Source: Sneathiella marina (lineage in GTDB: Bacteria; Pseudomonadota; Alphaproteobacteria; Sneathiellales; Sneathiellaceae). Taken from it: DNA of 64,000 nucleotides. The stretch covers positions 2,688,501-2,752,500 of the forward strand of contig NZ_CP098747.1 of the NCBI RefSeq assembly GCF_023746535.1, given 5' to 3'. The position numbers and the translations under genes were made by a program. Shown here one piece after another: positions 44,780-62,518 of this stretch (the first letter of the stretch is position 1; the number at the start of each line of letters is the position of its first letter). Below the pieces are notes generated by a model. It was not told the DNA's origin and searched no databases. It saw only the letters and a list, made by a program, of their open reading frames with translations.

Positions 44780-46036
44780 CGCATCCCGCAGCTGGTAATA
44801 TTTCATCGCGAGAGACAACAGCGGAACCCGCAGCGCTGTCCCCCCAGGAAAGGGTTTGTGGGGAATTCGGCTGAACACGTCCAGGCGTTCCATTTCACCG
44901 CTAACCGCCTCTGCCAGTATCCGGCCGGCAATGGCCGATAAAGGCAGCCCCTGCCCCGAAAATCCGTGGGCGTAATAAATATTTTGCCCAATTCGGCCGA
45001 TATCGGGCAAACGATGTCGGGTTACGGCGACTTTCCCGCCCCAGGCAAACTCGACCCTCACATCTTCAAGCTGAGGAAATGTCCGTAACATATGATGCCG
45101 GAGCACGTCTTCGGGACGCTTGAGATGCCGCCCCGCATAATCACGCCCGCCATACAGCAAACGATGATCCGCAGACATACGAAAGTAATCCAGGTTAAAA
45201 TCGGTATCGGAAACGCAAGCCTCGGTTTTCAGGATTGTTCGTGCCCGGTCGGCGGATAACTTCTCTGTCGCAATAATATAGCTGCTTACCGGGATTATTC
45301 TGGCGTCCAATCCGGCATTCAAACCGTTCATATAAGCATTGCCGGCCAAAATAACCGAAGAGGCCGTAATTTTACCGCCAGCGGCTTTTAGAACAGGCTT
45401 TTTCCCCTCAACGAGCTCCAGTGCTTTTGAATGTTCAAATATCTGCACACCGGCGGCTGCCGCCGCCCGCGCCAAACCCAAGGCGTAATTGAGCGGATGT
45501 AAATGACCGCCCTGATAATCCAGTAAACCCGCCTTGTATCGCGTTGTCCCTACATAATTGGGGAGATCAGCCCCGCTGATCCATTCATACCCCTGAAAAT
45601 CAAAGTTATCCTGACAGAAGGCCATTTCCCGCAACAACCAGTCGCGATGGCTATTCTTTGTCGCGGCATAAAGCTCGCCTTCCTTGAGATCACACTTGAT
45701 CTCATGATCCGCAATACGGTTTTTCAGGATGCCGGTCGCCTCGACGGACATAGCCCATAATTTCGCACTGTCATCGATACCAACCAGCCGGGTGGTTTCA
45801 ATCATGCCGGGCTGATAGCCGGTAGCGATTTGGCCGCCGTTGCGGCCCGAAGCACCCCACCCCACCGATTGCGCCTCAAGCACGGCAACCGAATACCCTC
45901 TTTCTGCCAACTCAAGGGCACTCAGCAAACCGGTATATCCGCCGCCGACAATACAAATATCGACGCTAACATCTTGATCAAGAGATGAAAATACCGTCGC
46001 CGAATGTGCGGTTGCTTGATAAAAATTGCTGTCCAT
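44771..46036 (-). CDS. FAD-dependent oxidoreductase (PuuB/DadA-like amine oxidase)
   Basis: A 421-aa flavoprotein of the DAO family from ATG 46034-46036. FAD loop ICIVGGGYTGLLSALEL near residues 27-43, VGWGASGRNGGQI near 62-74, and the C-terminal GFSGQGLPLSAIAGRILAE. The AGRNGGQ-type block and the length resemble gamma-glutamylputrescine oxidase. Substrate is not certain. Longer starts at 46108 and 46132 lack ribosome sites. No transport or regulatory gene adjoins it that would settle the pathway. Confidence 0.88.
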   Translation of the reverse strand: MDSNFYQATAHSATVFSSLDQDVSVDICIVGGGYTGLLSALELAERGYSVAVLEAQSVGWGASGRNGGQIATGYQPGMIETTRLVGIDDSAKLWAMSVEATGILKNRIADHEIKCDLKEGELYAATKNSHRDWLLREMAFCQDNFDFQGYEWISGADLPNYVGTTRYKAGLLDYQGGHLHPLNYALGLARAAAAAGVQIFEHSKALELVEGKKPVLKAAGGKITASSVILAGNAYMNGLNAGLDARIIPVSSYIIATEKLSADRARTILKTEACVSDTDFNLDYFRMSADHRLLYGGRDYAGRHLKRPEDVLRHHMLRTFPQLEDVRVEFAWGGKVAVTRHRLPDIGRIGQNIYYAHGFSGQGLPLSAIAGRILAEAVSGEMERLDVFSRIPHKPFPGGTALRVPLLSLAMKYYQLRDALG

Positions 46037-46175
46037 CAAAAAATTATTTTCACAGGTAACTTCATTACTTTCCAACTCCGCGCTTGCAAGATTCCGTTCA
46101 ATCCTCATGATATAGAATAATGGGGCGGCCACAGGCTTAGGTTTTACCCTGACACAAAATTACGGCAAGGAATTA

Positions 46176-46193
46176 ATGAACACTCCATGGTAA
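46176..46193 (+). other. Five-codon mini-ORF overlapping the SLC13 gene start
   Basis: AAGGA precedes ATG AAC ACT CCA TGG TAA (46176-46193). The ATG of the transporter (46187) lies inside it in another frame and is too far (about 15 nt) from AAGGA for direct use. This is the second such arrangement in the window. Confidence 0.3.
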
Positions 46194-48043
46194 TAGTTGA
46201 ATCAACTCTGCATATCTGGATTCTTCTCGCTTTCATTGCCGTTGCTATTGTCGCTTTTGCCAGCGAACGCATTGAGCTCGAAATATCCTCCATCGGCGTC
46301 ATTGCCGGCCTTCTACTCTTGTTCCATTTCTTTCCGTTGGAAAATAACGATGGAGATATTCTTCTAACTGCCGCTGATATACTGGCAGGTATTGGTGATC
46401 CGGCACTTATCACCGTCTTGTCGTTACTCGTCGTTGGTCAGGGTATCGTTCGAACAGGCGCTCTGGATCAGCCGATCCGGCGATTGGTAACTTTGCGCCG
46501 GCATCACCCGGTTCTGGCGATCGCTGTAGTTCTGACAACCGTGCTGATAATCAGCGCCTTCATGAACAACACCCCCGTGGTGGTAATTTTTATTCCCCTG
46601 ATGACAGCTCTGGCGGAGCGGCTTCATCGCTCAACCTCCACCTTGATGATCCCGCTAAGCTATGCATCGATTCTCGGAGGCATGACAACCCTGATCGGCT
46701 CGTCGACAAATCTTCTGGTCATGGCTGCGGCAGTTCAAGCAGGATTGCCCGAGCTGTCCTTTTTCCAGTTTACGCTGCCCGGTGCCGTGCTGGCATTTTT
46801 CGGGCTTTTATACGCCTTGATTATTATTCCCCGCATTCTTCCCAATCGGGCCTCCATCACCGGCGAAGTTGTCGATATCTCCGGCAAGCAGTTTATCGTT
46901 CAAATGGAAATTGCCGCGGACAGCCCCCTGGTAGGTGAAGGGGCCTTGATGGGCCAGTTCCCGAGTTTGCGAAACATAACGGTCCGGTTCATTCAGCGGG
47001 GTGAGCATGTCCTGCTCCCGCCCTTTGATAACATTTCCCTGCGACCTTCAGATGCCGTCATTTTTGCCGGCACCCGTAAATCCATCACTGAAGCCTTTGC
47101 CGACAATCCGCAAATGCTTCAGGGTCTGCTAAATCCAGAAGAAACGGAAGACCCAACACCGTCTGACCTTAAACCCGCTCAGGAACAAACCCTGGCGGAA
47201 GCCGTTGTGGCACCGGCGTCGCGAATGATCGGTCGCGCATTATATCAAGTGAGTTTTCACTATCGGACAAAATGCGTGGTCGTCGGCATTCAACGGCGAT
47301 CGCGCATGATCAGAACAAGCCGTATGACGGATATTCGGCTTGAGGCCGGGGACGTTTTGCTCATACTCGGAGACCGTGCGGATATTATGCGAATCCGGAG
47401 TAATCCGGACGTTTTACTTCTTGAATGGTCGGCAAAAGAGCTTCCGGCAACGGCCCTCGCCTGGCGGGCAAGAATTATTTTTGGCCTGGTTGTTCTTTCT
47501 GCCGCAACAGGCGTATTGCCGATTGTCGTCGCAGCAGTTGCCGGAGCCGCGGCCATGGTTGTCTCCGGTTGCCTCAATATCTATCAGGCGAGCCGCTCTA
47601 TTGACCGTAGAATACTGCTTTTGATCTGGGCTGCCCTTGGCCTTGGAGCGGCCATGCAGGCAACAGGCGGGGCAAGCTATATCGCTCATGGTGCGTTATC
47701 TTTGCTGATGGGCGCCGGCCCACCGGTCATCCTGTCCATCTTCTTTTTGATAGTCGCCATCTTCACCAATATCCTGAGCAATAATGCAACAGCCGTTTTG
47801 TTCACACCCGTCGGCATAAGCCTTGGAATAGAGCTGGGCGTGGATCCGATGATTTTTGTCTATGCCGTAATATTCGGCGCAAATTGCTCCTTTGCCACGC
47901 CCATGGGGTATCAGACGAATCTGTTGGTCATGGGCCCCGGCCATTATAAATTTGTAGATTTTCTGAAGGCTGGGGGACCATTGGTTATCCTTCTGTGGAT
48001 CGTATTTTCGTTTTTAGCCCCTTTTTATTATGGATTGATGTGA
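46187..48043 (+). CDS. SLC13-family transporter with RCK_C (TrkA_C) domains
   Basis: A 618-aa membrane carrier. The DASS/SLC13 repeats are recognisable by FMNNTPVVVIFIP with GGMTTLIGSSTNLLV in the first half and SNNATAVLFTP with ATPMGYQTNLLVM in the second. Between the halves lies a cytoplasmic stretch (about 220-410) with two RCK_C-like modules, each ending in ...LRPSDAVIFAG or ...LEAGDVLLILG. Such fused carriers move dicarboxylates, sulfate or other anions. Substrate unknown. See the mini-ORF for the start context. Confidence 0.88.
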   Translation: MVIVESTLHIWILLAFIAVAIVAFASERIELEISSIGVIAGLLLLFHFFPLENNDGDILLTAADILAGIGDPALITVLSLLVVGQGIVRTGALDQPIRRLVTLRRHHPVLAIAVVLTTVLIISAFMNNTPVVVIFIPLMTALAERLHRSTSTLMIPLSYASILGGMTTLIGSSTNLLVMAAAVQAGLPELSFFQFTLPGAVLAFFGLLYALIIIPRILPNRASITGEVVDISGKQFIVQMEIAADSPLVGEGALMGQFPSLRNITVRFIQRGEHVLLPPFDNISLRPSDAVIFAGTRKSITEAFADNPQMLQGLLNPEETEDPTPSDLKPAQEQTLAEAVVAPASRMIGRALYQVSFHYRTKCVVVGIQRRSRMIRTSRMTDIRLEAGDVLLILGDRADIMRIRSNPDVLLLEWSAKELPATALAWRARIIFGLVVLSAATGVLPIVVAAVAGAAAMVVSGCLNIYQASRSIDRRILLLIWAALGLGAAMQATGGASYIAHGALSLLMGAGPPVILSIFFLIVAIFTNILSNNATAVLFTPVGISLGIELGVDPMIFVYAVIFGANCSFATPMGYQTNLLVMGPGHYKFVDFLKAGGPLVILLWIVFSFLAPFYYGLM

Positions 48044-48135
48044 ATTATGGAGATTTCTGCAGCTGCCCTATTTGATAAAACGAGAAATCGCGTTACCCTT
48101 ATTTAAACTGGTTCAATAGCAGCAAAGGCATTCAA

Positions 48136-48864
48136 ATGAAGCGCGTGGAGATTCCCTCCCGATTCTTCTTTTCAACACCTCCCGCACCCTGCCCTTATCT
48201 TGAAGATCGGCTGGAGCGGAAAGTTGTGACGTTGCTTGCTGGCGAGGATCCAGATCACCTCCATAACACGTTAAGTCATGCCGGCTTCAGGCGGAGCCAG
48301 GACCTGGCATATCGACCCGCCTGCGATGGATGTGACGCCTGCATCCCGATCCGGGTCAACGCAAAAGAATTTCACCTGAAAAAGTCCTTTCGCCGCGTCT
48401 GGCAGGCGAACAGGGATTTGAAGGTTGCCGAAATTCCGACGACAGCAACACAAGAGCATTTCGCCTTATTCCATAATTATCTCCAGTCGCGCCATTCGGA
48501 TGGCGGCATGGTTGATATGGATTTTGATGATTATCAGGCAATGATTGAAGACAGTCCTGTCAAATCTCAACTGGTTGAGTTTCGCAAATTAGACGGCAGC
48601 CTGTATGCGGTCAGCCTGACAGATGTGATGGAAGATGGCCTTTCCCTCGTCTACAGCTTCTTTGCCCCGGATGAAGATAAACGCAGCCCGGGGACCTATC
48701 TGATCCTGTGGCATATCCTGCAAGCCCGGTACCGGCAATTGCCGTTTGTTTATCTGGGCTACTGGATCGAACAAAGTCAGAAAATGTCGTATAAACAACG
48801 GTTCATGCCGTCAGAAATACTGACCCGCAATGGCTGGGAGCCATTATCCCCCACGCTCAAATAA
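48136..48864 (+). CDS. bpt: Aspartate/glutamate leucyltransferase
   Basis: Adds leucine from Leu-tRNA to N-terminal Asp/Glu, feeding proteins to the ClpS/ClpAP N-degron pathway. The 242-aa protein has the ATE N- and C-domain patterns: FFFSTPPAPCPYL, the CDGCDACIPIRV cysteine cluster near residues 63-74, FRRSQDLAYRP, and GTYLILWHILQA with YLGYWIEQSQKMSYK. Length fits the family. Standalone gene. Confidence 0.93.
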   Translation: MKRVEIPSRFFFSTPPAPCPYLEDRLERKVVTLLAGEDPDHLHNTLSHAGFRRSQDLAYRPACDGCDACIPIRVNAKEFHLKKSFRRVWQANRDLKVAEIPTTATQEHFALFHNYLQSRHSDGGMVDMDFDDYQAMIEDSPVKSQLVEFRKLDGSLYAVSLTDVMEDGLSLVYSFFAPDEDKRSPGTYLILWHILQARYRQLPFVYLGYWIEQSQKMSYKQRFMPSEILTRNGWEPLSPTLK

Positions 48865-48967
48865 ACACTCGATAAACTATCCGTATTCGCCCCGGGCTTA
48901 TGCCGGAATTTGCGGAACCATGAGGCAGCGCAAGCTACTCACAATTCCGCAATCCTTAAGTGTTTCC

Positions 48968-51625
48968 CTAGAAATTATGGGAAATATCCTTATGGCCAGA
49001 GCGACAACCAGCAACGAATAAAGCCTGTTCCTTGGTCATTTTTGTCTGCAACCGAACGCCAAGGGTCCCCAGCATTTGCTCAGCATAGGTTTCCAGACCG
49101 CTTAACAGATTAACCCCGGCCTTTTCACGCCATGCAAGCTGGGTGTCGTATTTCTTGACGACCTTATCCATCTCTTTCACGGCTTTATCAATTTTCGGGG
49201 TTTTTGCCTTGAGGGGGCGACGGACTTTCGACAGTCCGGACCGGATTTCGTCGGCACCGGTAACATCATTGAACCGTTTCGTCAGGGCCTCAACCTCTGG
49301 AACCAATTCCGCCGGTTCCTTCACCAGCAACTCTTCCTTCAGTTTCATCAGGTCCGCCTGCAACGCTGCGAATGCGTCGTTACTCCGCAAGACGTTCATG
49401 AAATCTTTCACGGTCGAGTAACCACTGTCAGATGCCCGGCGGAATTGCAGCCTTAATGTGGATTCGTCCTTCAACGATTTTCTGAAATCATTGTAAACGC
49501 CATCCCACTCGGCAGGTATTTTCGCGACAAGAGCATCTCGCTCCGACTTCAACTCCAGAATGTCGTCTTCAAGCTTCTTCTTTTGAACGGCCTGGTCTTC
49601 ACTGCGCATACGGCCAACCAGTGTGTCATTCTCTTCGATTTCCGCTTCAATTTTACGCACATCATTCTCGAGTTTTCTGACGACCCTTTGCATTGGAACA
49701 AATCCGTCTTTCTTCTGCTCGACAACGCCTTCCGCTTCAAAAGCCTGTTTCAGCAAGCCGGGCGCGCTTTCCGCCGCGTCAAAACTTTTCGTCAACGCAG
49801 AGGCGGTACGCTTCGGAAGATAACTCAGATTCAGGCCACGCACCGCAGCCAGCGTACTGGCGAATTCTGCCTCAGTCGCAGTGAACTGGTCCGCAATATA
49901 TTTTTCAACGCAATATTCCAGTCGCGGGTTACGCGGTGGCGGTGCGGTTTCTGCCGTTAAGGAAGTCCGGTTAGGCAGATAATTGACCAATTGCGGGTAC
50001 AATCCAACAACAACAAGCGCGATTAACTGCAAGGTAATAAAGGCGATAACACCTTTGTACATCTCAATCGTCTTAACAATTGGCGGGGCGACACCTCGTA
50101 AATAAAATAACGCGAAACCAAAGGGCGGCGTCAGGAAGGAGGTCTGGATATTCAATCCGATCATCACACCAAGCCAAACGGCGGTTATGTTCGCCGACGG
50201 ATCAGCAAGCAAAATTGGCGCCACGATCGGCACAACAACAACAGCAATTTCAATGAAATCCAGGAAGAAACCCAGAACAAAGATCACAGCCATAACGATG
50301 ACAAATTTTGACCAGAAACCGCCGGGCATGCTGTTGAGGAAATCACGAACAAGCTCTTCCCCGCCAAATGCCCGGAAAGCAGCCGTTAACATGGCTGCGC
50401 CCAATAGGATGATAAAAACCAAAGACGTGGTCTTTGCGGTTTCGATCATTACTTCCTGAAGCGTGTTATCAATTTTGTAAGCGCGTAAACTACTCCAGAT
50501 GATGGAGACAATCAGTCCCGCCGTTGCCATTAACCCAAGGGTGACACCAATGGCACTACGGGTGTCCGAAATGGATTTAATATTCGTATCGAAGAAGGCC
50601 AGAACAACAAGAATACCTGCGAGAGACAGCAGTCCGAGTATGACCGGCGCAAAGGCGCCTCTTTCGCCTTCTTTCAATCGATACCCTGCCATCAGGATGG
50701 CGCCGACCGCGCCGATAGATCCAGCCTGGTTAACCGTCGCAACACCGGCGATGATTGATCCCAGCACGAGGAAAATAAGCCCCAGTGGTGGGAAAAGAGC
50801 CATAAACAGCTTGCCGAAAAAGGCACGATCAAAGCTTCCGCCATAGCGTACGGCGGGGGCGGCCTTTGGTCGAATAAAGGCGAAGCCAAGAATAAAGATC
50901 ATGTAAATGGCGACGAGCAGCAAACCTGGAACAAAGGCACCCAGGAACATTTCACCCGCACTTGTCGAGATCACGTCGAAAGACGACGGCATTGTCAATT
51001 CGCCGGTCGCGGATTTATGCAGTGCCTTTCGCGCTGTCCCTGCCTGATCAGTGGCACTCGCCAGCTGATCGGCAAGAATAATCAGGACAATAGAAGGTGG
51101 AATAATCTGACCCAATGTCCCTGAAGCGGCGATAGTTCCGGTTGCCAGCGGCCTGGAATAATTATTCCGTAGCATCGCAGGCAATGAAATAAGTCCCATT
51201 GCGACAACAGTTGCGCCAACAATGCCTGTGGTCGCTGCCAATAAGGCACCCACAAAAACAACGGAAATACCCAAACCACCCGGAACCGGCCCAAACAACT
51301 GCGCCATTGTTACAAGCAGATCTTCAGCGATTTTCGAACGCTGGAGCATAATGCCCATAAAAATGAAGAGCGGGATCGCGATTAGTGTGTCGCGCTCAAC
51401 CTCCCAATAGACACTCCTCAGGTTGGTGACACCGGCACTTAACCATTGCCATGGCCCCCCTTGATGAAAATAGGCATCAGGATTGCTTTCGAACAGAAAC
51501 CCGGAAAGCGCCGCCAGCGCGACGGTTACAATTGCAGAGCCCGGCAAGGCGAAAGCAACTGGATACCCCGAGCCTAGAGCAAGAGCCATCAAAAGAATTA
51601 GAATAGCGAGAAAAAAGAGTTCCAT
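48968..51625 (-). CDS. TRAP transporter large permease (DctM type) with a long soluble C-terminal extension
   Basis: 885 aa; ordinary DctM proteins have about 430-530. Residues 1-556 form the multi-helix permease: IPLFIFMGIMLQRSKIAEDLL, ATTGIVGATVVAMG, ASGTLGQIIPPSIVLIIL, FLDFIEIAVVVVPIVAP, QTSFLTPPFGFALFYLRG. Residues about 557-885 are hydrophilic, charged and heptad-like, with coiled-coil stretches (RKLENDVRKIEAEIEEN, KKKLEDDILELKSERDAL). This tail is uninterrupted by stops and continues in frame, so it is a real fusion. The permease part pairs with DctQ (51635) and DctP (52697). Confidence 0.92.
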   Translation of the reverse strand: MELFFLAILILLMALALGSGYPVAFALPGSAIVTVALAALSGFLFESNPDAYFHQGGPWQWLSAGVTNLRSVYWEVERDTLIAIPLFIFMGIMLQRSKIAEDLLVTMAQLFGPVPGGLGISVVFVGALLAATTGIVGATVVAMGLISLPAMLRNNYSRPLATGTIAASGTLGQIIPPSIVLIILADQLASATDQAGTARKALHKSATGELTMPSSFDVISTSAGEMFLGAFVPGLLLVAIYMIFILGFAFIRPKAAPAVRYGGSFDRAFFGKLFMALFPPLGLIFLVLGSIIAGVATVNQAGSIGAVGAILMAGYRLKEGERGAFAPVILGLLSLAGILVVLAFFDTNIKSISDTRSAIGVTLGLMATAGLIVSIIWSSLRAYKIDNTLQEVMIETAKTTSLVFIILLGAAMLTAAFRAFGGEELVRDFLNSMPGGFWSKFVIVMAVIFVLGFFLDFIEIAVVVVPIVAPILLADPSANITAVWLGVMIGLNIQTSFLTPPFGFALFYLRGVAPPIVKTIEMYKGVIAFITLQLIALVVVGLYPQLVNYLPNRTSLTAETAPPPRNPRLEYCVEKYIADQFTATEAEFASTLAAVRGLNLSYLPKRTASALTKSFDAAESAPGLLKQAFEAEGVVEQKKDGFVPMQRVVRKLENDVRKIEAEIEENDTLVGRMRSEDQAVQKKKLEDDILELKSERDALVAKIPAEWDGVYNDFRKSLKDESTLRLQFRRASDSGYSTVKDFMNVLRSNDAFAALQADLMKLKEELLVKEPAELVPEVEALTKRFNDVTGADEIRSGLSKVRRPLKAKTPKIDKAVKEMDKVVKKYDTQLAWREKAGVNLLSGLETYAEQMLGTLGVRLQTKMTKEQALFVAGCRSGHKDISHNF

Positions 51626-51634
51626 AGTCTTGCT

Positions 51635-52633
51635 CTAACCTGCCGTAACGGGGGGTTCATGATCCTCGTGACCCGGTTGTTCTTTGTAATCAGCCACGGC
51701 TTCCATCAGATAACTGACAAACTGAATAAGCATTGTCACAGCGAAAACCGCAAGGAATCCGGCCATAAGATATTTCACATACAGCCCGAAGCCCGATTGT
51801 GTGACTTCAAAATTTGCGAGTGGGCTGTAAATAATCGCCGCTTTATTTCCCATGCCGACGAACAAGATTGTCCAACAAAGCGTTATCCCGAGAAATAACG
51901 TCCCGACGGCATTAACGAAACCCTTGGTTTTCGTCTTGAAACCGGCGTAGAAAACATCCACCCGAACATGGCCTTCTTCCACCAGGGTAAAGGCGCTGGC
52001 AAACAGGAACAAAGCGGCATACCAAAACCGAACGAGATCCCCCATAAATGACTGTTCATAGGAAAAGATAAAGCGGGTGATAACAATCGTAAGTTCGGCA
52101 AACACCACTAGAAGAGCCAGCCATTGAAACCCGAGTGTTTTGGTACGCAAGGCGAGAAGAATGCTCAACACCATCAACGGAATATGAACCATTGTACCGC
52201 GAAATTGCGGGCGCCCCAGATCCGAGGCCAGCTGATCCCCTACCACGGAGGACAATATTCCTTCAACGCGGAGAAACGAAATTGCCATATCGGCAAGACC
52301 AACGAACAGCACAGCCCAAAAAGCGGCGCGCACTAGGAAAGTATTAAATCTTGTAATTGATTTGGCTTCATCTCGAAGGTGACGCCCCGAGGTACGCATG
52401 ACATAGACGACGGCAAAGACCAGGCCAGCAATATACAGGAATAATTGTATCCATGAATTGGCGCCCGCTCCTTCCGACTTGAAAATCGCACCGATACCCG
52501 GCCAGCCCAAAACAAATGTAAGAAAATTATCAAAGAAGTACAGCGGAACCGCTACAAGCATGAACCACCCAAAAATGCGGACTGTCAACTGTAGCCCGCG
52601 GCCAGATGCGTATACATCTTCTGCCACTGTCAT
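51635..52633 (-). CDS. TRAP transporter small permease (DctQ type) with an extra N-terminal membrane part
   Basis: 332 aa against a usual 160-200. The C-terminal half matches DctQ: LVEEGHVRVDVFYAGF corresponds to LQKGGHVRVDIFYAKA in the other DctQ (54351). The N-terminal 150 residues add about four helices with no match to the second set. ATG 52631-52633 with GGGAG 6 nt upstream is preferred. It lies 9 bp before dctM and 63 bp after the dctP stop. Confidence 0.88.
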   Translation of the reverse strand: MTVAEDVYASGRGLQLTVRIFGWFMLVAVPLYFFDNFLTFVLGWPGIGAIFKSEGAGANSWIQLFLYIAGLVFAVVYVMRTSGRHLRDEAKSITRFNTFLVRAAFWAVLFVGLADMAISFLRVEGILSSVVGDQLASDLGRPQFRGTMVHIPLMVLSILLALRTKTLGFQWLALLVVFAELTIVITRFIFSYEQSFMGDLVRFWYAALFLFASAFTLVEEGHVRVDVFYAGFKTKTKGFVNAVGTLFLGITLCWTILFVGMGNKAAIIYSPLANFEVTQSGFGLYVKYLMAGFLAVFAVTMLIQFVSYLMEAVADYKEQPGHEDHEPPVTAG

Positions 52634-52652
52634 CTGCATCTCCCAAAGAGGA

Positions 52653-52678
52653 AGGGGCGAGATGTTGATCCCGCCCCT
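52653..52678 (-). promoter_or_regulatory. Intercistronic hairpin between dctP and dctQ
   Basis: AGGGGCG (minus strand; complement of 52672-52678) pairs with CGCCCCT (52653-52659) around a 12-base loop. There is no T-run. A stable hairpin here would protect the upstream dctP message or attenuate the permease genes, a common way to make more binding protein. Confidence 0.45.
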
Positions 52679-52696
52679 GTCTTCTGATTAACGATT

Positions 52697-53794
52697 TTAG
52701 CCGTCTATACCAAGAACACGGTTCCGCTGGTTCGAGAAGGCCACTTCGGCAATTCTTGTCCAGCCACCGATTTCCCGGAGGTTCTTTTGGAAGGCATCAT
52801 TGATCTTCGCTGCAAGCGGGCTGTGATCACGGGTTTCTTCAAAAACCTCGAGAGCAGCTTCAGCAAAGCTGTCATAGATATCGTCGTTAAACTCTTTCAG
52901 AATAACGCCATTTTCCGTTACCATTTTGTTCAGGTACGTTCCGTTAAGGGCCATGGCTTCTTCATACTGACCGGCATGTTCTTCCATGCAAGCCGCTGTG
53001 ATGACAGCTTGTTCCCATTTGGAGAGGCTTTCCCACCATGATTTATTCATGCCGAACGCCAATCCTCCGCCTGGCTCATGCATACCTGGGTAGTAGTAGT
53101 ATTTCGCTGCTTCATAAAATTTCATGAAGTAATCGTTATACGGACCCACCCATTCCGTTGCATCGATAGCGCCGGAAACAAGGTTTTCATAAATCTGGCC
53201 ACCTGGAAGAGAAACCGGAGACGCGCCCAATTTAGCCATGACGTCACCGCCCAGGCCAGGAATACGCATCTTCAGACCCTTAAGGTCTTCAGCAGAATTA
53301 ACTTCCTTGTTGAACCAACCACCCATTTGGGTACCGGTTGCACCGCAAGCCAATGCCTTCAAGCCATATTCACCGGACATTTCGTCCCAAAGGGCCTGAC
53401 CACCGGCGAATTTAATCCAGGCATTCCACTCTGATGTTGTCATTCCCAAAGGTACAGATGTGAAATATGCAAAGCCAGGATGCTTGCCTTTCCAATAGTA
53501 ATCAGCAGCAATATATGCTTGCGCATTTCCTGAGGCTACTTCGTCAAATGAATCAAATGCACCAACGCGTTCGCCGGCTGCAAAATATTTCGTTGTCAGC
53601 CGACCTTCACTAAGTTCGGTAATCCGGGCTGCAAGACGCTGGGCACTAATGCCAAGTCCTGGAAAGTCCCGTGGCCATGTGGAGACAATTGTCATCTCCT
53701 TGCGTTCCTGGGCGATTGCTGGTGCAGCAAACGGTATTGCGGCAGCACCGGCACCTGCAATCGCAGCGCCCGTCAAAAACTTGCGTCGTTCCAT
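52697..53794 (-). CDS. TRAP transporter solute-binding protein (DctP family, TakP-like)
   Basis: A 365-aa periplasmic receptor. ERRKFLTGAAIAGAG is a twin-arginine-type signal, unusual but known for this group, followed by APAIAQ as the cleavage area. The mature part starts MTIVSTWPRDFPGLG, then has MRIPGLGGDVMAKLGASPV and the DATEWVGPYND ligand loop. These resemble the TakP subgroup that binds alpha-keto or hydroxy acids, but the ligand is inference. GGGAG lies about 9 nt before ATG 53792-53794. First gene of dctP-dctQ-dctM. Confidence 0.92.
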   Translation of the reverse strand: MERRKFLTGAAIAGAGAAAIPFAAPAIAQERKEMTIVSTWPRDFPGLGISAQRLAARITELSEGRLTTKYFAAGERVGAFDSFDEVASGNAQAYIAADYYWKGKHPGFAYFTSVPLGMTTSEWNAWIKFAGGQALWDEMSGEYGLKALACGATGTQMGGWFNKEVNSAEDLKGLKMRIPGLGGDVMAKLGASPVSLPGGQIYENLVSGAIDATEWVGPYNDYFMKFYEAAKYYYYPGMHEPGGGLAFGMNKSWWESLSKWEQAVITAACMEEHAGQYEEAMALNGTYLNKMVTENGVILKEFNDDIYDSFAEAALEVFEETRDHSPLAAKINDAFQKNLREIGGWTRIAEVAFSNQRNRVLGIDG

Positions 53795-54350
53795 AAGATA
53801 TTTCTCCCATTTTAAGTCAAAGGGCAAAATGGCTCGCCCTCTCTAAATCGTTTTCATATAACAGAATTGTCGCGATAATTTTCGATGCGAATCAATGTAA
53901 GCGTCGTCTTTTCTGGTTTATTTGCCAGTAAAATTTCCGCGAGTTCTCCCTGTCGCCCGCATTTTGCAGGAAGATGACTCAAATACAAGGCAAAATTTCA
54001 CATTCGAAAATAGTGATGTTAAGTACCGTTTCAGTCATTTTACCTAAATAAACGCCCTTAACCGGTTGTAATATATATAATATTTTTCAATGGAAAGGCT
54101 GATTTTGGTCAAAATGATGCCTGGCCACAATCGACTTTGCATCCCATGAGCGCAAAATGTCATAGCTGTTGACCTATCAATTGCGACTGTAATGACATCA
54201 ATAAGTTCACTGATTCCGTTCACTTTTGTATCCCTTGCCGAGACTGTGGATCTTCGCCGCTGTGGTCAAGTTGCGTATTGGGCAGGGCTCCCGTATACAT
54301 TCGGGTTATGTGTACTGGGCAGTGACGGCTCTTATGAGGGAAATCCAACA
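53795..54350. other. Divergent control region between the two TRAP operons
   Basis: About 550 bp up to the preferred DctQ2 start. The stretch 53850-54180 is AT-rich in places with no gene. An in-frame ATG at 54192 would extend DctQ2 by 53 residues, but that part has no DctQ character or ribosome site. Both operon promoters must lie here; I cannot pick operators by eye. Confidence 0.4.
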
Positions 54351-54893
54351 TTGAATAATCTGGCGCCAATTGCGCGGTCACTCGATACTTTCAGCAAAAT
54401 TGTGGGCCAATATGTATCCTGGCTCGCTGTTTTCATGGTCTTGGTTCAATTTTCAATCGTGCTGGGCAGATATGTCTTCGGTTTGGGATCCATAGCCGCA
54501 CAAGAGACGGTTATCTATAGCCACGGCCTGCTATTTATGCTGGGTGCCGCCTACACTTTGCAAAAAGGCGGGCATGTACGCGTTGATATCTTCTACGCGA
54601 AAGCCGGCCCGAAACGACAGGCGACCATTGATCTATTGGGAAGCTTGTTTTTGCTCATCCCAGTCAGCATTATTATTCTGCTGGCCAGCTGGAAATATAT
54701 CTCGGGCTCCTGGCAAATCATGGAAGGATCCGTTGAAAACTCGGGGCTACCTTACGTGTATTTGCTGAAATCAGTGATTATCGTGTTTTGCGGCATGATG
54801 ATCCTGCAAGGTGTTTCTACTATTCTGCACGCCATCCTCGTTTTGGGCGATAAGGAAGCCATGCCCTCCAATGAAATACAAACGGAGCTTTAG
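54351..54893 (+). CDS. TRAP transporter small permease (DctQ type)
   Basis: A 180-aa, four-helix protein from a TTG at 54351 with GAGGGA 9 nt upstream. The segments GLLFMLGAAYTLQKGGHVRVD and SLFLLIPVSIIILLASWKY match DctQ proteins. A longer ATG form (54192; 233 aa) is possible. The dctM-type gene follows 2 bp after its stop. No DctP gene accompanies this set. Confidence 0.85.
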   Translation: MNNLAPIARSLDTFSKIVGQYVSWLAVFMVLVQFSIVLGRYVFGLGSIAAQETVIYSHGLLFMLGAAYTLQKGGHVRVDIFYAKAGPKRQATIDLLGSLFLLIPVSIIILLASWKYISGSWQIMEGSVENSGLPYVYLLKSVIIVFCGMMILQGVSTILHAILVLGDKEAMPSNEIQTEL

Positions 54894-54895
54894 GT

Positions 54896-56476
54896 ATGGC
54901 GCTACCTGAATATTTCGCCATCGGCTTGTTTCTACTGGCGATTTTAAGCCTCCTTGCAGGTTTTCCTGTTGCGTTCACACTTGCCGGCTCGGCCTTATTT
55001 GTGGCTGCCATTGCCTCACTCACCGGCGCTTTCGAGATCAGCCTGATGGGCGCCATTCCGTCTCGAATTTTTGGCACGGCCATCTGGAACGAAGTGCTTA
55101 TCGCTGTTCCATTGTTTATCTTCATGGGGTTGATGCTTGAGCGGTCCCGTGTTGCGGCAAGCTTGTTGGAAAATATGGGAATGTTGTTTGGACAGTTGCG
55201 GGGCGGGCTGGGGATTTCAGTCTTCATTGTTGGCGCCTTACTTGCGGCTTCCACAGGTATTGTCGGCGCGGCGGTTGTTACCATGGGGCTAATGGCTCTG
55301 CCTACGATGCTCAAACACGGTTATGATCCCAAGCTGGCAGCAGGTGCTATTTGCGCATCCGGGACACTGGGCCAGATTATCCCGCCGTCGATAGTCCTGA
55401 TCATTCTAGGGGAGCAGATCTCCAATGCCTATGTTGCCTCACAAAGCCTGATCGGAAACTGGTCTCCTGAACCGGTTTCCGTCGGCGATTTATTTGCAGG
55501 CGCGCTCGTTCCCGGCCTATTGCTGGTCAGCTTATATATACTTTATCAAGTTGGTATTGCCTTTTTCAAACCCCAAAGCTCTCCTGCTCTTCCCGCCGCA
55601 GCCGCTAAGGATAACCGGCTTATCTTGAAGTTAATTGGCGCACTTTTCGCCCCTGTCGCGCTGATGTTGGCAGTTCTCGGCTCAATAATAATGGGAGTCG
55701 CGACGCCGACCGAAGCAGCATCTGTTGGCGGTGTAGGCGCAATTTTGCTTGCAGGTATTGCGGATAAAGAAAAGCCCGCAGGGTGGATTTATATGGCGGG
55801 TGCGTCGGTTCCGGCCCTGCTTCTCATTTCAAATTTTCTGGATTTGCGGATCGATCCTGGTGGAATATCCCAAGAGGCACTTCTCGGGTTATCGTTAGCG
55901 GTTCCGTTGATTTTAATCCTCATCGCCGGAATAGGAATTAGCTTGGTCAGGTTATACAGATCCGGGATATTGAAAGAGGTTTGCCTGTCAACCATGCAGA
56001 TGTCGTCCATGGTGTTTGTTATTCTTATCGGCGCAACACTTTTCAGCCTGGTTTTTCGGGGACTGGGTGGTGACGATATTGTTTATGAGGCGCTAAAAGA
56101 CCTGCCTGGCGGGAAATACGGTGCCTTGTTTGTCGTGATGCTGGTCATATTCATTCTTGGATTCTTTCTGGATTTTGTCGAAATTACCTTTGTCGTTGTT
56201 CCAATAGTCGCCCCGGTTATACTTCTGATGGAAGTGAATCCTATCTGGCTGGGAATACTGATTGCAATGAATTTGCAAACGTCCTTTCTAACCCCGCCTT
56301 TTGGTTTTGCGTTATTCTATCTGAGACGGGTTGCCCCGGCGGAAATAACTACCGGAATGATTTACAGGGGCGTTATTCCTTTTGTCCTTATACAGTTAGG
56401 CGCGCTCGCCATTCTTGCAGCATTTCCGGCACTCGCGACCTGGCTTCCGGAGAATTTTCTGGGCTCTCAATATTAA
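54896..56476 (+). CDS. TRAP transporter large permease (DctM type)
   Basis: 526 aa with about 14 helices. VPLFIFMGLMLERSRVAASLL, ASTGIVGAAVVTMG, SGTLGQIIPPSIVLIILGEQ, FLDFVEITFVVVPIVAP and QTSFLTPPFGFALFYLRR all align with the first-operon DctM at 48968, so the two are paralogues. Both contain the same two-helix insertion in the middle (about residues 290-350). It lacks the soluble tail of its paralogue. Starts 2 bp after dctQ2. Confidence 0.92.
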   Translation: MALPEYFAIGLFLLAILSLLAGFPVAFTLAGSALFVAAIASLTGAFEISLMGAIPSRIFGTAIWNEVLIAVPLFIFMGLMLERSRVAASLLENMGMLFGQLRGGLGISVFIVGALLAASTGIVGAAVVTMGLMALPTMLKHGYDPKLAAGAICASGTLGQIIPPSIVLIILGEQISNAYVASQSLIGNWSPEPVSVGDLFAGALVPGLLLVSLYILYQVGIAFFKPQSSPALPAAAAKDNRLILKLIGALFAPVALMLAVLGSIIMGVATPTEAASVGGVGAILLAGIADKEKPAGWIYMAGASVPALLLISNFLDLRIDPGGISQEALLGLSLAVPLILILIAGIGISLVRLYRSGILKEVCLSTMQMSSMVFVILIGATLFSLVFRGLGGDDIVYEALKDLPGGKYGALFVVMLVIFILGFFLDFVEITFVVVPIVAPVILLMEVNPIWLGILIAMNLQTSFLTPPFGFALFYLRRVAPAEITTGMIYRGVIPFVLIQLGALAILAAFPALATWLPENFLGSQY

Positions 56477-56508
56477 AAAAGCCGCGAGTTTCCCCGCGGC
56501 TCCTTTAA
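56474..56508 (-). terminator. Rho-independent terminator shared by bioY and the second TRAP operon
   Basis: AGCCGCG (56480-56486) pairs perfectly with CGCGGCT (56495-56501) around an 8-base loop. On the minus strand the hairpin is followed by TTTTTT, so it is a strong bioY terminator 12 bp past the bioY stop. On the plus strand it is followed by a weaker CCTTT stretch just after the TRAP dctM stop. Confidence 0.85.
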
Positions 56509-56519
56509 GTTTATCCGGA

Positions 56520-57119
56520 TCAACGCCGGAATTTTTCAATCAGTTTCCAGGCAATCGGAAGAACCGCTACAGCAAGGGCAATTTTAAGAACTGCACCCGG
56601 AAGGAAAGGAAGCATCCCAACTTCAATGGCCTTTTCAAACCCGGTAAACGTAGATAGCCAGGCAATCCCGCCGGCGAAGATAACAACCGTTCCAAGACAC
56701 ATCGCAAGGGCGGTCAGAAAAATTGATTTTCCCCATCCCCTTTCGACAAGCCATCCAACGACCGCTGCGGCGGCGACAAAGGCAAACAAATACCCAGCGG
56801 TTGGTCCAACCAGATGAACTGCACTCCCGGCTCCTCCAGCGAATACTGGAAGCCCTGCGGCGCCTTCTGCGAGATAAAGAGCCAGGGTGGCTCCCCCAAG
56901 GCGCCAGCCAAAGGCTGCGCCAACCAGCACAACCGCAAAGGTCTGCATCGTCATGGGTACAGGCCATAATGGCACAGTAAGCTGCGCCGAAGCCGCAACC
57001 AGAAGGCTGCCGACAATGGCGAGGATGCCCAGCCTAAAAGCCTGCATCGCTTTGGAAGATTTTTCATCTCGCGTCCACAATGCATCAACAAGAATTGCAG
57101 AGTTTGTTACAGATGACAT
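56520..57119 (-). CDS. bioY: Biotin transporter BioY
   Basis: S-component of an ECF-type biotin uptake system. 199 aa, about six helices; the family blocks are PVPMTMQTFAVVLVGAAFG and YLAEGAAGLPVFAGG with GPTAGYLFAF. Bacterial BioY can work without BioMN, and no bioMN genes adjoin it. ATG 57117-57119 with AAAGGA about 7 nt upstream is chosen over an upstream codon. Ends at the strong terminator at 56474-56508. Confidence 0.94.
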   Translation of the reverse strand: MSSVTNSAILVDALWTRDEKSSKAMQAFRLGILAIVGSLLVAASAQLTVPLWPVPMTMQTFAVVLVGAAFGWRLGGATLALYLAEGAAGLPVFAGGAGSAVHLVGPTAGYLFAFVAAAAVVGWLVERGWGKSIFLTALAMCLGTVVIFAGGIAWLSTFTGFEKAIEVGMLPFLPGAVLKIALAVAVLPIAWKLIEKFRR

Positions 57120-57202
57120 TCTAGTTCCTTTCAAAAGACTGTTGCCGTCAATGCGACAACGGGCTTTATCTAGCGGAATAGACGCGTAAATACAATAAAA
57201 AT

Positions 57203-57221
57203 ATACTAATATAAGTAGTAT
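57203..57221. promoter_or_regulatory. Inverted repeat upstream of bioY
   Basis: ATACTA (57203-57208) and TAGTAT (57216-57221) form a perfect 6-bp inverted repeat with a 7-bp spacer, about 85 bp before the bioY ATG and directly beyond the stop of the ligase gene. It could be an operator. It does not match the BioR box TTATMKATAA that I know for alphaproteobacterial biotin genes. Confidence 0.3.
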
Positions 57222-58832
57222 TTATTTGCTGATTTTCTTTTTCATTTTCCTGAAATCAAAGATACCCGGCTGTTCCAGCGGATTTACCCCTGATTCAAAA
57301 ATCTGGGTTTTTTGAATTTTCTGTGTGCCGGTGGTCGGCAAGCTCTCGACAAACAATATCCATCCCGGCGGCTTGTAATAAGCGAGTTTCCCTCTGGCGA
57401 AATTAAACAGGCTGGTTGCCAGTTTCCCTGTCGGCGATGTTGCACCTTTGAGAACGATACATGCCATGACTTCTTCTTCACGGATTTCATCTTTCACTGC
57501 GATTACAGCAACTTGAGCCACCTTATCGTGGCTCTGCAAGACAGCTTCTACTTCCGCCGCGGCGATATTCTCCCCGGAGCGACGAATGATATTTTTCTTT
57601 CGATCCACAAAGTAGAGCATTCCTGTTTCATCCTGGCGAACAGTGTCTCCTGTATGAAACCAGTTCCCTTTCCACGCTTCCTCTGTTGCGATATCATTTT
57701 TCAAGTAGCCCGCGAAAAACCCCCGGCGCGGGTCCTTGCCACGGCAGCTAACCAGCAGCTCTCCGTCCTGCCCCACCTCGACGTCCATATCATGTTCATC
57801 AACAACCCGGGCGATCATGTCATCTTCCGGCCGTCCAAACGCCCGTGTATGAATTTGACGCGGTTCATGCCGGTTGACGAAAATCCGGCCGGTTTCCGTC
57901 ATCCCCCAGACTTCGATGAGCGGAAACCCATAGCGTTCTTCAAATACGTCATGTAATTCAGGTTCAACTCCCGCGCCCAAACCGAACCGGACTGAATGGT
58001 TTGTTTCCTGCTCGCTTACAGGCTGATTGAGCAGCATGGGCGGCACAACACCCAAATAGTGAATTATGGTCGACCGTGTTTGCACCAGTTCTTGCCACCA
58101 GGTTGACGGATGAAACCGGTCCGGAATAACCAGACAGCCGCCGGATAACAGCATACAGACAAATGACACAGCGCCAGCGTTCATGTGGAACAGCGGAAGC
58201 GGATTATAGAGCCGCTCCTCGCCTCTTCTAATCTCAGCCAGTCCCCCTAGCTCCAGATAGGTCCGGCCAGCTTCCAGATAATATTCGTTGGTCAGAATAC
58301 AGGCTTTTGGCCGACCTGTTGTGCCGGAAGTATATAAAAGGCTGACTTCGCTCTGTAAATCTGGTGTTAAATCCCCCGCCCTGGTTTGTGGGGACGGCAG
58401 CAATTCAGGAAAATCCTCAAAAACCACCAGGGACGGTTCTTTCACACTTTCATTTACCACTGCTTTCAGATCTTCAAATCTCGAGGCGATGGTTACTGCC
58501 ATATCCACCTCGGAATGATCCATCTGATACAACATCTCGTCATGCAGATAGTCAGGGTTTATGGGAACCACCGAAATCCCCAAGGCATTTGCGGCCAGGA
58601 AGTGGAACAGATATTCAGGGCGATTTTCCAGCAAATAAGCAACACGGTGACCCGAGCCATATCCTGACCGACGATAAACATCTTTAAGCCGCTCAATCTC
58701 AACCGACGCCGTCTCGTAAGAAAACTCCATACCTTCCGGATAATAAGCTCGGTTTTCATATGCTGGTACACATAGGAATGTATTTTCTGGAAACGATGCA
58801 GCCGTTTCACAAAATGTGCGATAAACCGTCAA
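57222..58832 (-). CDS. Acyl-CoA ligase / AMP-binding protein (CaiC-like)
   Basis: A 536-aa adenylate-forming enzyme. A3/P-loop SLLYTSGTTGRPKA near residues 164-177, IEVWGMTETGR, YFVDRKKNIIRRSGENIAAAEVE, and the C-terminal KIQKTQ lysine region. The GEN-I-A-A-A-E-V-E form resembles carnitine/crotonobetaine-CoA ligases; the carboxylate cannot be told. It is 12 bp downstream of parC on the same strand. Confidence 0.88.
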   Translation of the reverse strand: MTVYRTFCETAASFPENTFLCVPAYENRAYYPEGMEFSYETASVEIERLKDVYRRSGYGSGHRVAYLLENRPEYLFHFLAANALGISVVPINPDYLHDEMLYQMDHSEVDMAVTIASRFEDLKAVVNESVKEPSLVVFEDFPELLPSPQTRAGDLTPDLQSEVSLLYTSGTTGRPKACILTNEYYLEAGRTYLELGGLAEIRRGEERLYNPLPLFHMNAGAVSFVCMLLSGGCLVIPDRFHPSTWWQELVQTRSTIIHYLGVVPPMLLNQPVSEQETNHSVRFGLGAGVEPELHDVFEERYGFPLIEVWGMTETGRIFVNRHEPRQIHTRAFGRPEDDMIARVVDEHDMDVEVGQDGELLVSCRGKDPRRGFFAGYLKNDIATEEAWKGNWFHTGDTVRQDETGMLYFVDRKKNIIRRSGENIAAAEVEAVLQSHDKVAQVAVIAVKDEIREEEVMACIVLKGATSPTGKLATSLFNFARGKLAYYKPPGWILFVESLPTTGTQKIQKTQIFESGVNPLEQPGIFDFRKMKKKISK

Positions 58833-58844
58833 GAAATTATCCTT

Positions 58845-61073
58845 TTATGAAAATCGATTGTTCTTGTTAAACCCTCTGGGTGCCAATCGCCCGGCATTAC
58901 CCCGTCTGGTATACCATCCAGTTAAATCCTGCTCTGTTCGGGTTCGTTCGCCGGATTTCCAGCTTAAGCCATCTATCTTGTTAAATGTCTTGATATCTGA
59001 AAGGCCGCCATCTTTGTAACGCTGTAAAGTAACACCGCGGCCGCGGCTCATTTCAGCCAGCTCTTCAATCGCGAAGCAATTCAATTTACGGTTTTCACCA
59101 ATTACAGCTACAGAATCTCCCACGACTTCGGTACAGAATGCTGCTTCATTGTCACCTGACACATTCAAGGTCTGTTTGCCGTTTCGTGTTTGGGCGATCA
59201 CCCCGTTTTCATCGACGATAAAGCCGCGACCGTCGTTAGAGGCGACGAGCAATTTTCTGTCCGGCTTATGAACAAAGAGGGACACGATATCTTGATCATT
59301 ACCCAAATCAACCATTAGTCGGACCGGTTCACCATGCCCCCGCCCCCGCGGAAGCTTGTCACAACCGATGGTATAAAAACGGCCATTTGTCGCAAATAAT
59401 ACAAGTTTGTCCGTCGTTTCCGTAGTGATCCAGAAACGTTCCTTGTCCCCATCCTTGTATTTCTCGCTACCGCCCTGCTCCACATGTCCTTTGATGGCTC
59501 TTATCCATCCTTTGGCTGAACATATGACGGTAATGGATTCTTTTTCGATCATTGCTTCTAAGGGAATTTCCGGCATTTCCACGGCTTCGCCAATACGGGT
59601 GCGACGATCAGAAATTTCAGGAATACCAAGGAGAGTCTTTTTCAGCTCCTTCAATTCATCAGAAATCGCGACACGCTGAAGATCTTCACTTCCCAGCAAC
59701 GCTTCAAGCTCTGATTTTTCAAGACTTAGCTTATCATGTTCCCGCCGTAGTTCCATTTCCTCCAGCCGACGTAACGATCGCAAGCGCATGTTTAAAATGG
59801 CCTCGGCCTGATTATCTGTCAGGATAAACGTATCGATCAGGCTTTGCTTCGGATGGTCTTCCTCGCGGATAATCCGGATCACTTCATCCAGGTTTAAAAA
59901 GACGATCAGATATCCATCAAGAACCTCGAGTCGCGCCTCGATTTTCCCCAAACGGTGAGTGGACCGCCGAACCAGAACTTCAAAACGATGATCCAGAAAT
60001 GCCTGCAGTACATCGCGCAATGCCATGACCCGCGGGGTTTGACTGGCATCAAGGACGTTCATATTCAGAGAAAACCGATTTTCCAGATCCGTCAGCCGGA
60101 AAAGCCCCTGCATCAGCATCTCTGCTTCAACATTTTTACTTCTTGGTTCCAAAACCAGGCGAATGTCTTCCGCAGATTCGTCCCGTACATCCGCCAAAAA
60201 TGGTAGTTTCTTTGTTTGGATCAGCTCGGCAATTCGCTCGATCAACTTGCTCTTCTGAACTTGATAGGGAATTTCCGTTACAACGATTTGATAGGTGCCG
60301 CGACCGGTGTCTTCCACTTCCCATGTTGCCCGTTGTCGAAACCCGCCACGGCCCGTCAAATAAGCTTCGCGAATATTTTCCGGTTTCTCAACAAGCTCAC
60401 CGCCTGTTGGAAAATCTGGCCCAGGAACAAACTCCATCAATTTATCAATTCCCGCATTGGGGAATTTTATAAGATGCAAAAGGGCGTTCGTAACCTCAAC
60501 TGCATTATGTGGCGGAATGGAAGTTGCCATCCCGACGGCAATGCCGGCAGAGCCATTGGCCAGCAAATTTGGGAAAGCCGACGGAAGAACCACCGGTTCG
60601 TGGTCTTCACCATCATATGTCGGTCGAAAGTCGACCGTATCCTGATCGATATCCCGAAGCAGCAATTCTGCGACAACCGTCAGCCGCGCTTCGGTGTACC
60701 GCATGGCCGCAGCATTATCGCCATCAATATTCCCGAAATTTCCCTGACCTTCTACCAGAGTATACCGCTGGGCAAAATCCTGTGCCAGGCGAACCAACGC
60801 ATCGTAAACAGACTGATCCCCATGGGGATGGTATTTACCAATAACATCACCAACAACCCGCGCACATTTTTTAAAACCTGAATTCGGGTCCAGTTTTAAC
60901 TGCCGCATGGCAAATAACAGGCGTCGATGAACCGGCTTCAAGCCATCCCGAACATCGGGTAGCGAACGGGACATGATCGTCGACATCGCATAGGCAAGGT
61001 AGCGCTCGCTTATGGCGTCCTTCAGTGAGGTTGGAACGATCTCACCGGGCTTTACGGGGGAATGGTCACTCAT
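58845..61073 (-). CDS. parC: DNA topoisomerase IV subunit A
   Basis: Type IIA topoisomerase cleavage subunit that decatenates chromosomes. The 742-aa protein has the winged-helix/tower core with [37 protein letters not shown] and the active-site Tyr in MRYTEARL (near residue 122), then a beta-propeller C-domain of modest length, as in alphaproteobacterial ParC. In the quinolone loop the E. coli Ser80 position is Gln. recO lies upstream on the same strand. Confidence 0.95.
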
Positions 61074-61169
61074 GCCTTCTATATACCACCAGATTCATCA
61101 ATGAGGAGGGAAAAATTTGGAGAAATTAAATCTTCTTGCCCAACTTCTTTGATTTTCAAACAATTGATC

Positions 61170-61928
61170 CTATGCAGCCCTGAAAAAGCTCTTTTCGAGG
61201 GTAATGAGAAACCGTTCCCGGGCCGCGAGATGAATATTGGGCCGATGTTCCAAAATTGCCTTTTCAATAAAATATCCAGTAAGCGCCAATCCATTTAAAA
61301 TATCTGATTTTATTGCCGCATCAGATGGCAATAAATCAGTAGGTCCTGGCTGTAAAAATACTGGAAGAGGTAGCAGTCTATCGTGATAAGGCTCTCCCGC
61401 AGATTTACTAACAGCTTTGCCGGTTTTTGGGGAAACATAGACGAGGTTTTCGACATTTCCAGTCGCCGCACACGAGCTTAAATCGAGGCCATAGCCGATT
61501 TCAGCCAGCAACCCGAGCTCCCATTTGACAAAAAGTGTCGGCCAGATATCGGCATTTTTTTCCATGGAGGTCAGCAATAACAAACTTGCGTCATAAAGTG
61601 CCGGATGAGGTTCCCGCTCCGGCAAGGCAATATCAAGTAGCGCCAAGGCCGCGCTACTGGCCGCCAAGGCAACAGGGGCGTCAAAAAGATTACTGGTATG
61701 TGCCTTTCTAGCCTCAACTGTAAATGTTCCCAATTGCTCTGAAAGCCGTCCGCGCCACGACAAGTCGACTTCATTTCCTGGTTGCAAAACACCGCGCATA
61801 CGCCGACCGGCGCCGCCTCGCACAAGGCCGGCAAATCGTCCTTTTTCACGGGTAAGAGCATGAATGATCATACTTGTCTCCCCATGTTTTGCTGCCGTGA
61901 GGATCAGACCTGCATCATTCCAATTCAT
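61170..61928 (-). CDS. recO: DNA repair protein RecO
   Basis: RecF-pathway mediator that loads RecA on SSB-coated DNA. The 252-aa protein shows the RecO start MNWNDAGLILTAAKHGETSMI, then TREKGRFAGLVRGGAGRRMRG with the OB-fold basic patch, and the helical C-domain with FVKWELGLLAEIGYGLDLSSCA (in part). The zinc cysteines of some RecOs are not evident. It is about 96 bp upstream of parC, the usual neighbourhood. Confidence 0.93.
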   Translation of the reverse strand: MNWNDAGLILTAAKHGETSMIIHALTREKGRFAGLVRGGAGRRMRGVLQPGNEVDLSWRGRLSEQLGTFTVEARKAHTSNLFDAPVALAASSAALALLDIALPEREPHPALYDASLLLLTSMEKNADIWPTLFVKWELGLLAEIGYGLDLSSCAATGNVENLVYVSPKTGKAVSKSAGEPYHDRLLPLPVFLQPGPTDLLPSDAAIKSDILNGLALTGYFIEKAILEHRPNIHLAARERFLITLEKSFFRAA

Positions 61929-62037
61929 CTTTTGATTTTAGCAGAAATAGATCCAGAAATTAAGAAAAATCGATCATCCAGTATCTCACAACCTCCCCCC
62001 ACCATGCGTCTGACGAGAATTAGAAGAGGAAGGATCA

Positions 62038-62355: not shown

Positions 62356-62518
62356 TTGGTGTCTGAATAGTCTTCGCTGATAGCCTTAATTCTCGACTGC
62401 ACTCCTTCATGAAATACGCATTTAGCTATCAGTTTTACTCACAAATACCCCGCCGCTGCGTCCTTAAGATATTGCCAACTAGACTTCCCGAAAAATTTCT
62501 TTTTCAAAAGGAGAGATC

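Follow-up and report, generated by a model that had tools for sequence, protein, structure and literature searches.

The large permease subunit (DctM) of a tripartite ATP-independent periplasmic (TRAP) transporter of Sneathiella marina carries, behind its last membrane helix, a tail of 329 residues that is conserved in relatives, is predicted to fold as an all-helical domain, and goes together with an enlarged small subunit (DctQ). The gene lies in a window of 64,000 nucleotides (contig NZ_CP098747.1, positions 2,688,501 to 2,752,500 of the forward strand), and all positions below are counted from the first letter of this window. A first-pass annotation, made by a model from the letters, had drawn attention to about 329 hydrophilic residues past the last helix; these are residues 557-885 of 885, hydrophilic throughout (K+R 55, D+E 54), and, as was also noted there, they are missing from the paralogue at 54896, a protein of 526 amino acids (aa) that stops 8 residues past its last hydrophobic segment. 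We propose tentatively that the tail is a periplasmic arm that helps the binding protein to dock. P, Q, and M stand below for the binding protein and the small and large membrane subunits.

With the tail as the sole query, hits were obtained in 13 of 25 family genomes (one tail per genome), in 31 of 385 genomes and 23 of 276 genera of the class, and in 7 of 398 genomes of the phylum, all seven from the window's own class; the window's genome is included in each count. The alignments in the 12 other family genomes extend over 328-329 residues at 38-60% identity, and conservation of the tail, as read from these sequences, is far beyond chance, so the outcome that the first-pass annotation had said would speak against the tail, namely a lack of conservation, did not occur. 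A protein scan of named genomes, which may leave out records of the window's own genome, found 18 loci, the closest relatives, each at 78%, being a Sneathiella metagenome-assembled genome (MAG) and another MAG whose title is Proteobacteria bacterium. Three loci (L016, L018, L031) have gammaproteobacterial record titles; all are MAGs, and their labels are taken as given.

The tail was found in one frame with the DctM membrane part in 64 of 64 distinct tails, i.e., the same fusion, which the annotation had suggested looking for, exists in other genomes; standalone tails were found neither among the fetched loci nor, by tblastn, in plasmids. Tail length is 324-334 residues in 61 of the 64 (the remaining three have 307, 241, and 257, the last being cut off), at a median pairwise identity of 33%. 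The tail is the faster-diverging part, with a median distance of 0.67 vs 0.25 for the membrane part, and no internal stops occur in the tail matches listed in the family, class, and phylum searches.

In the family sample, the 13 tailed Ms are exactly those with at least 73% identity to the membrane part, the other listed matches reaching at most 54%. A tree was built from the membrane parts of 63 tailed and 31 untailed Ms, with L131 (cut-off frame), short rows, and near-duplicate rows left out beforehand. It requires one change of tail status, with a Shimodaira-Hasegawa-like approximate likelihood ratio (SH-aLRT) support of 100, and the tail labels agreed on rechecking (95/95). This was a quick tree with a long-branch warning, mainly for untailed rows and for one tailed row (L127), whose placement is unsure. 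As the tree groups them, the tailed Ms are one side of one branch of TRAP large subunits. A separate observation concerns L134, in which the untailed-type M frame at 7230-9029 extends 77 residues past the match to the window's untailed M; this is perhaps a different C-terminal addition.

An AlphaFold2 model of the tail, computed with 18 relatives, is all helix without strand (predicted local distance difference test, pLDDT, 91.0; predicted template modelling score, pTM, 0.80), with helices at tail residues 11-27, 29-40, 49-116, 120-145, and 151-191, followed by shorter ones up to 317. The pTM, together with compact structural matches over tail residues 192-282, points to a folded all-helical domain rather than the coiled-coil tail of the first-pass annotation; what stands of the latter is that one long helix pair in the model resembles a coiled-coil hairpin. 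Helix 49-116 has a fraction of 0.79 hydrophobic a/d positions in its best heptad register, and 41 of 63 insertion or deletion events relative to the window's tail fall in tail residues 120-134 (one of 63 in 45-119), a clustering that suits the tip of a hairpin built from 49-116 and 120-191. Tail residues 192-282 resemble common four-helix bundles: the best rows of VIA-align are a match to 6a93_B (Z 11.4, root-mean-square deviation (rmsd) 2.2, 88 aligned) and one with Z 11.6, rmsd 21.7, and 152 aligned. Both Z values are below the threshold of 13 advised for helical bundles and within the range usual for them, and the tail outside 192-282 was barely probed in this way. The helix packing, the length of the arm in angstrom, and a Cys572-Cys874 disulfide are inferred.

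Several positions of the tail are fixed. In the 64-row alignment P562, P563, N566, V649, R650, W707, and C572 are present in every row and C874 in 62 of 62 readable rows; exactly two Cys are found in 62 of the 64 tails, and of the other two tails one is cut off and one contains 32 unread letters. Phe885 stands directly before the stop codon in 63 of 63 closed frames (untailed-type Ms ending in Phe: 2/33), and positions -1, -3, and -5 are mostly hydrophobic, -3 being Leu in 47 and His in 12 of the 63. Tail residues 1-8 and 323-329 have pLDDT below 50; the last seven are nonetheless well conserved, and low pLDDT of a conserved segment modelled alone is what may be expected if it binds elsewhere. 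The two cysteines, the C-terminal Phe motif, and the coupling to the long DctQ described below are additions to what the first-pass annotation had noticed.

The annotation had known of no described role for such a tail and had recommended a domain search of residues 557-885. In the window's own tail, the one member for which cut-offs were compared, every Pfam and NCBIfam model stays below its cut-off. At E up to 0.1, 46 Pfam families were hit for 19 tails, and a known domain was rejected: the best 25 of the 46 each match at most 4 of 19 members, and the best among those 25 (TFR_dimer, E 0.00074; NET2A, 0.00087; KIF21A_4th, 0.0009, 4 members) look like generic helical cross-matches. A sequence-profile search of the PDB gave the Max protein as best match (E 0.016), and Foldseek with the tail model found no match at E ≤0.001, the best being 0.12 in the PDB and 0.03 in viral models. 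DUF3394 is absent from the Pfam matches of the window's tail to E 1 and from the best 25 of 46 families of the 19 tails. No hydrophobic segment was found after the tail, and no prior description of a TRAP DctM tail of this kind was found in the parts of the open-access literature that were available.

The tail should lie on the periplasmic side, by homology to a solved transporter. In the cryo-electron microscopy structure of SiaQM, the M subunit has 12 segments with N-out/C-out topology, and transmembrane segments (TM) 10-12 belong to the transport domain (PMC9971032). In the tailed DctM, residues 441-552 are aligned to positions 506-612 of chain 7qe5_A, which has 616 residues, the alignment stopping 4 residues short of the chain end, so that the tail begins where the periplasmic C-terminus lies. 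The fixed Cys pair agrees with this location, and two matches to DsbB over the cut-off are present in the genome; a Cys572-Cys874 disulfide would probably pin the two ends of the tail together near the membrane. The first-pass annotation had left the choice between cytoplasm and periplasm; its periplasmic half is favoured by the C-out topology of the solved M and by the fixed Cys pair, and its cytoplasmic half is very improbable.

The Q subunit of the tailed system is enlarged by an N-terminal extension (residues 1-166) with four extra hydrophobic segments before the DctQ domain; the Q of SiaQM has four helices (PMC9971032). Measured stop to stop, the Q frame before tailed Ms has at least 322 residues in 53 of 57 distinct cases; in L020, L022, L071, and L096 it is shorter, and all four run up against the end of a contig. 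Where M is untailed or unreadable, Q has at most 247 residues in 32 of 35 cases; in two of the longer ones (L131, L089) the M frame is cut off, and the third (L147) is a run-on frame. The long DctQ was also observed to be fast-evolving and tied to the tailed DctM. An origin of its extension by duplication of the DctQ domain was considered and is unsupported (hhalign probability 0.6% and 1.4%).

Co-variation was measured by pairwise-distance correlations in 53 complete systems, as partial rank correlations given all M columns / given the fast M columns. The tail and the Q extension gave 0.62 / 0.59, the two halves of the tail against each other 0.55 / 0.53, the tail and the Q core (rate-matched columns) 0.33 / 0.29, and the tail and the fast M columns 0.24 / -0.04; for comparison, Q extension and Q core gave 0.47, and P and Q extension 0.34. 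Tail and Q extension thus co-vary to about the same degree as would the halves of a single domain.

Of the 53 neighbourhoods that contain a tailed M, 46 have the genes in the order P-Q-M; among the remaining seven, L014, L020, L022, L028, L031, and L096 are cut by a contig end or broken, and L127 is without P in the stretch read. For control, the binding proteins found in the class were sorted by their identity to the window's P. Those at least 61% identical come from 31 genomes, 30 of which have a tail (M is cut off in the other, G031); G132, which is tailed on a contig of 4,865 bases, shows no P at this level. Of the 18 next-closest P neighbourhoods (46-53%), 17 show M, every one untailed and with a short-type Q (17/17), and in one the contig ends after P. 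The window's binding protein matches 2hzk (TakP, E 1.2e-67) and 4pet (E 1.1e-71) and is similar in sequence to the TakP subfamily. It scores 17.9 bits for a twin-arginine translocation (TAT) signal vs a cut-off of 16.7, and among 53 binding proteins of tailed systems, loose patterns point to a twin-arginine-like signal in 44 and a lipobox-like one in 4, so the TakP-like binding protein is probably soluble. We also observed that the open reading frame (ORF) of this protein at 52697-53827 (-) is listed with a TTG start, while an ATG 11 codons further in gives the twin-arginine signal MERRKFL...; the ATG is probably the true start. Seven signature columns set the binding proteins of tailed systems apart; since any two clades differ in this way, they are given no weight here.

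Our preferred reading, in which we place slightly less than even confidence, is drawn by analogy: a periplasmic arm may steady the TakP-like binding protein as it docks and also brace against the enlarged Q. The first-pass annotation had suggested that the tail could tether the transporter to another protein, oligomerise it, or regulate it. The folded all-helical arm would continue from TM12, which by homology is in the moving transport domain; it would be closed at its membrane-near base by the Cys572-Cys874 disulfide, and the long helical hairpin would project from that base. The conserved free C-terminus (consensus HRDISLNF-COOH) would bind a partner near the base, and the arm and the four-helix extension of the long DctQ would act as one unit. 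The arm would lie on the face where the binding protein lands, and for this reason its most likely job would be to steady docking, as proposed for the claw of a TRAP transporter of the TRAP-associated extracytoplasmic immunogenic (TAXI) type discussed below. A further version, which we consider unlikely, is that the arm is a moving part: seated on TM12 and with its Phe motif held to the extended Q, it would pass the stroke of the elevator on to a docked binding protein, which it would help to open. If true, this would make the arm a built-in mechanical operator in a DctP-type TRAP transporter.

Several observations weigh against the docking proposal. The main one is that co-variation of the tail with the binding protein is weak (0.30 / 0.21 with all P columns, 0.33 / 0.25 with rate-matched ones), about that of the tail with the Q core or of P with the Q extension and below that of the tail with the Q extension, and the arm may therefore serve the Q and M pair alone. 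The distance correlations moreover share one phylogeny, which the permutations ignore, and contact is not proven by them. Over the 12.7 kb read, the tailed system L127 lacks a gene for a binding protein, its genome having another system with one. L150 (G107:C167), whose gene order is Q-M-P-P, has a tail of 241 residues without approximately the four-helix-bundle part and with both Cys and the terminal Phe kept; judging by this single case from one assembly, the tail is not needed in full. In the full-length model the membrane part is too poor to position the arm on the transporter.

In a possible, though doubtful, alternative, the tail and the Q extension stiffen a static scaffold or join two QM units, with no contact to the binding protein. 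The strongest coupling of the tail is indeed with the Q extension and not with P, and the predicted long helical hairpin would fit, such hairpins being a common dimerisation device. Elevator transporters work against a fixed scaffold (PMC9971032), but the tail is attached to TM12, which is in the moving domain by homology and is an odd site for a brace, and HiSiaQM, whose chain ends 4 residues past the aligned part, is described as dimerising without such an arm (PMC10942642).

Quite unlikely, in our estimate, is an envelope tether, in which the arm links the transporter to a periplasmic or outer-membrane component, e.g., by a PDZ-like or BAM-like protein that reads the Phe motif. The invariant terminal Phe and the hydrophobic positions before it speak for it, and the predicted 68-residue helix would span about 100 angstrom at 1.5 angstrom per residue; however, the window's tail contains no Pfam family over cut-off, a disulfide as proposed would place the C-terminus at the base of the arm rather than at its tip, and -3 is mostly Leu or His, whereas known DegS ligands carry Tyr at this position. 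A cytoplasmic regulatory or tethering tail would suit the abundant Lys, Arg, Asp, and Glu, but it is very improbable given the N-out/C-out topology of the solved M subunit and the Cys pair, which is fixed and, in 62 of 64 tails, accounts for every Cys present. That the tail is a functionless, drifting appendage is scarcely credible: its divergence is far above that of the membrane part, yet its length is nearly constant at such low identity, its Cys, Pro, Trp, Arg, and terminal Phe are fixed, and the listed matches contain no stops.

The features of the locus are listed in Table 1. The tailed DctM is the third gene of a P-Q-M cluster in which DctP, DctQ, and DctM are adjacent and on the same strand, and the presence of PF03480, PF04290, and PF06808 in neighbouring genes identifies a DctP-type TRAP system. 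The permease part scores 201.7 bits against PF06808 (gathering cut-off 23.8). Against TIGR00786 the tailed DctM scores 248.5 bits, under the curated cut-off of 268.45, and we therefore class it as a TRAP-operon protein with a DctM domain, outside that NCBIfam subfamily. The untailed paralogue is 48% identical to the permease part of the tailed DctM.

Table 1. Features of the tailed TRAP system and of the neighbouring untailed pair (positions in the window)
Feature	Positions	Strand	Basis
DctM-type large permease with C-terminal arm, 885 aa + stop	48968..51625	-	ORF, translation; PF06808
Membrane part, residues 1-556	49958..51625	-	alignment with solved sialic-acid TRAP permeases, last stretch up to residue 552
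Arm (tail), residues 557-885, 329 aa	48971..49957	-	translation, homologues, AlphaFold2 model
Conserved linker and base, residues 551-572 (PPPxNPxL..C), ending in Cys572	49910..49975	-	alignment
68-residue predicted helix, residues 605-672, outgoing hairpin half	49610..49813	-	AlphaFold2 helix 49-116 of tail
Putative returning hairpin half, residues 676-747	49385..49600	-	AlphaFold2 helices 120-145, 151-191 of tail
Four-helix-bundle-like part, residues 748-838 (tail 192-282)	49112..49384	-	local structural matches; L150
C-terminal motif, residues 874-885, C-x-[SA]-x-H-R-[DN]-[ILV]-S-[LH]-[NY]-F-COOH	48971..49006	-	position counts
Long DctQ, 334 aa	51635..52639	-	ORF; PF04290 at residues 186-313; hydrophobic segments
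DctP-type, TakP-like binding protein with twin-arginine signal	52697..53827	-	PF03480 171.3 bits; 2hzk, 4pet matches
Short-type DctQ of untailed paralogous pair	54192..54893	+	ORF
Untailed DctM paralogue, 526 aa	54896..56476	+	ORF; TIGR00786 283.2 bits (over cut-off)

The divergent pair of short Q and untailed M next to the P-Q-M(tail) cluster was observed in the relatives L015, L128, L129, and L130 as well. No further binding-protein ORF was found beside the window's untailed Q-M pair, which runs in the opposite orientation to the cluster, among the ORFs at 46000-64000, and the tailed and untailed permeases may share one binding protein. Elsewhere in the window, the ORF at 62519-63514 (+) encodes 331 aa very rich in histidine and tyrosine, with a repeated segment apparent by eye.

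An armed subfamily with an enlarged Q, beside an arm-less paralogue in the same genome, offers a ready-made comparison for docking; for docking and cargo hand-over in TRAP transporters an experimental tripartite structure was still needed as of 2024 (PMC10942642). The nearest published case is the claw (DUF3394) of the TAXI-TRAP permease VcGluQM, which was proposed from models to steady the docking of an untethered binding protein; its authors state that no such extension has been reported for DctP-type TRAPs, and a periplasmic tail in the window's system would bear on their suggestion that C-terminal periplasmic extensions are TAXI-specific (PMC11574862). Like the claw, the tail is a C-terminal addition to a TRAP permease, is attached, by homology, to the transport domain, and would be periplasmic. 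The claw, part of a TAXI system, has a mainly beta fold and is inserted in a fused QM that has three extra helices, between the second and the third of these (PMC11574862). The window's tail, in contrast, is all-alpha by prediction, starts right behind the last helix, and carries a fixed Cys pair as well as a terminal Phe; its system is of the DctP type, in which Q and M are separate proteins and Q is longer. The two are unrelated. MalF P2 is an internal loop and no C-terminal helical arm, and the maltose ATP-binding cassette importer MalEFGK2 is of an unrelated transporter class. That importer, in which a periplasmic permease part meets the binding protein, is the analogue named for the claw (PMC11574862). 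The SiaQM permeases (7qe5, 8thi, 7qha) are of the same permease family by sequence, their chains ending near the last aligned segment with no arm. In the 2-oxoacid transporter TakPQM, the binding protein is a close relative of the window's P, and the Q and M genes are, as in the window, downstream of P (PMC1839085).

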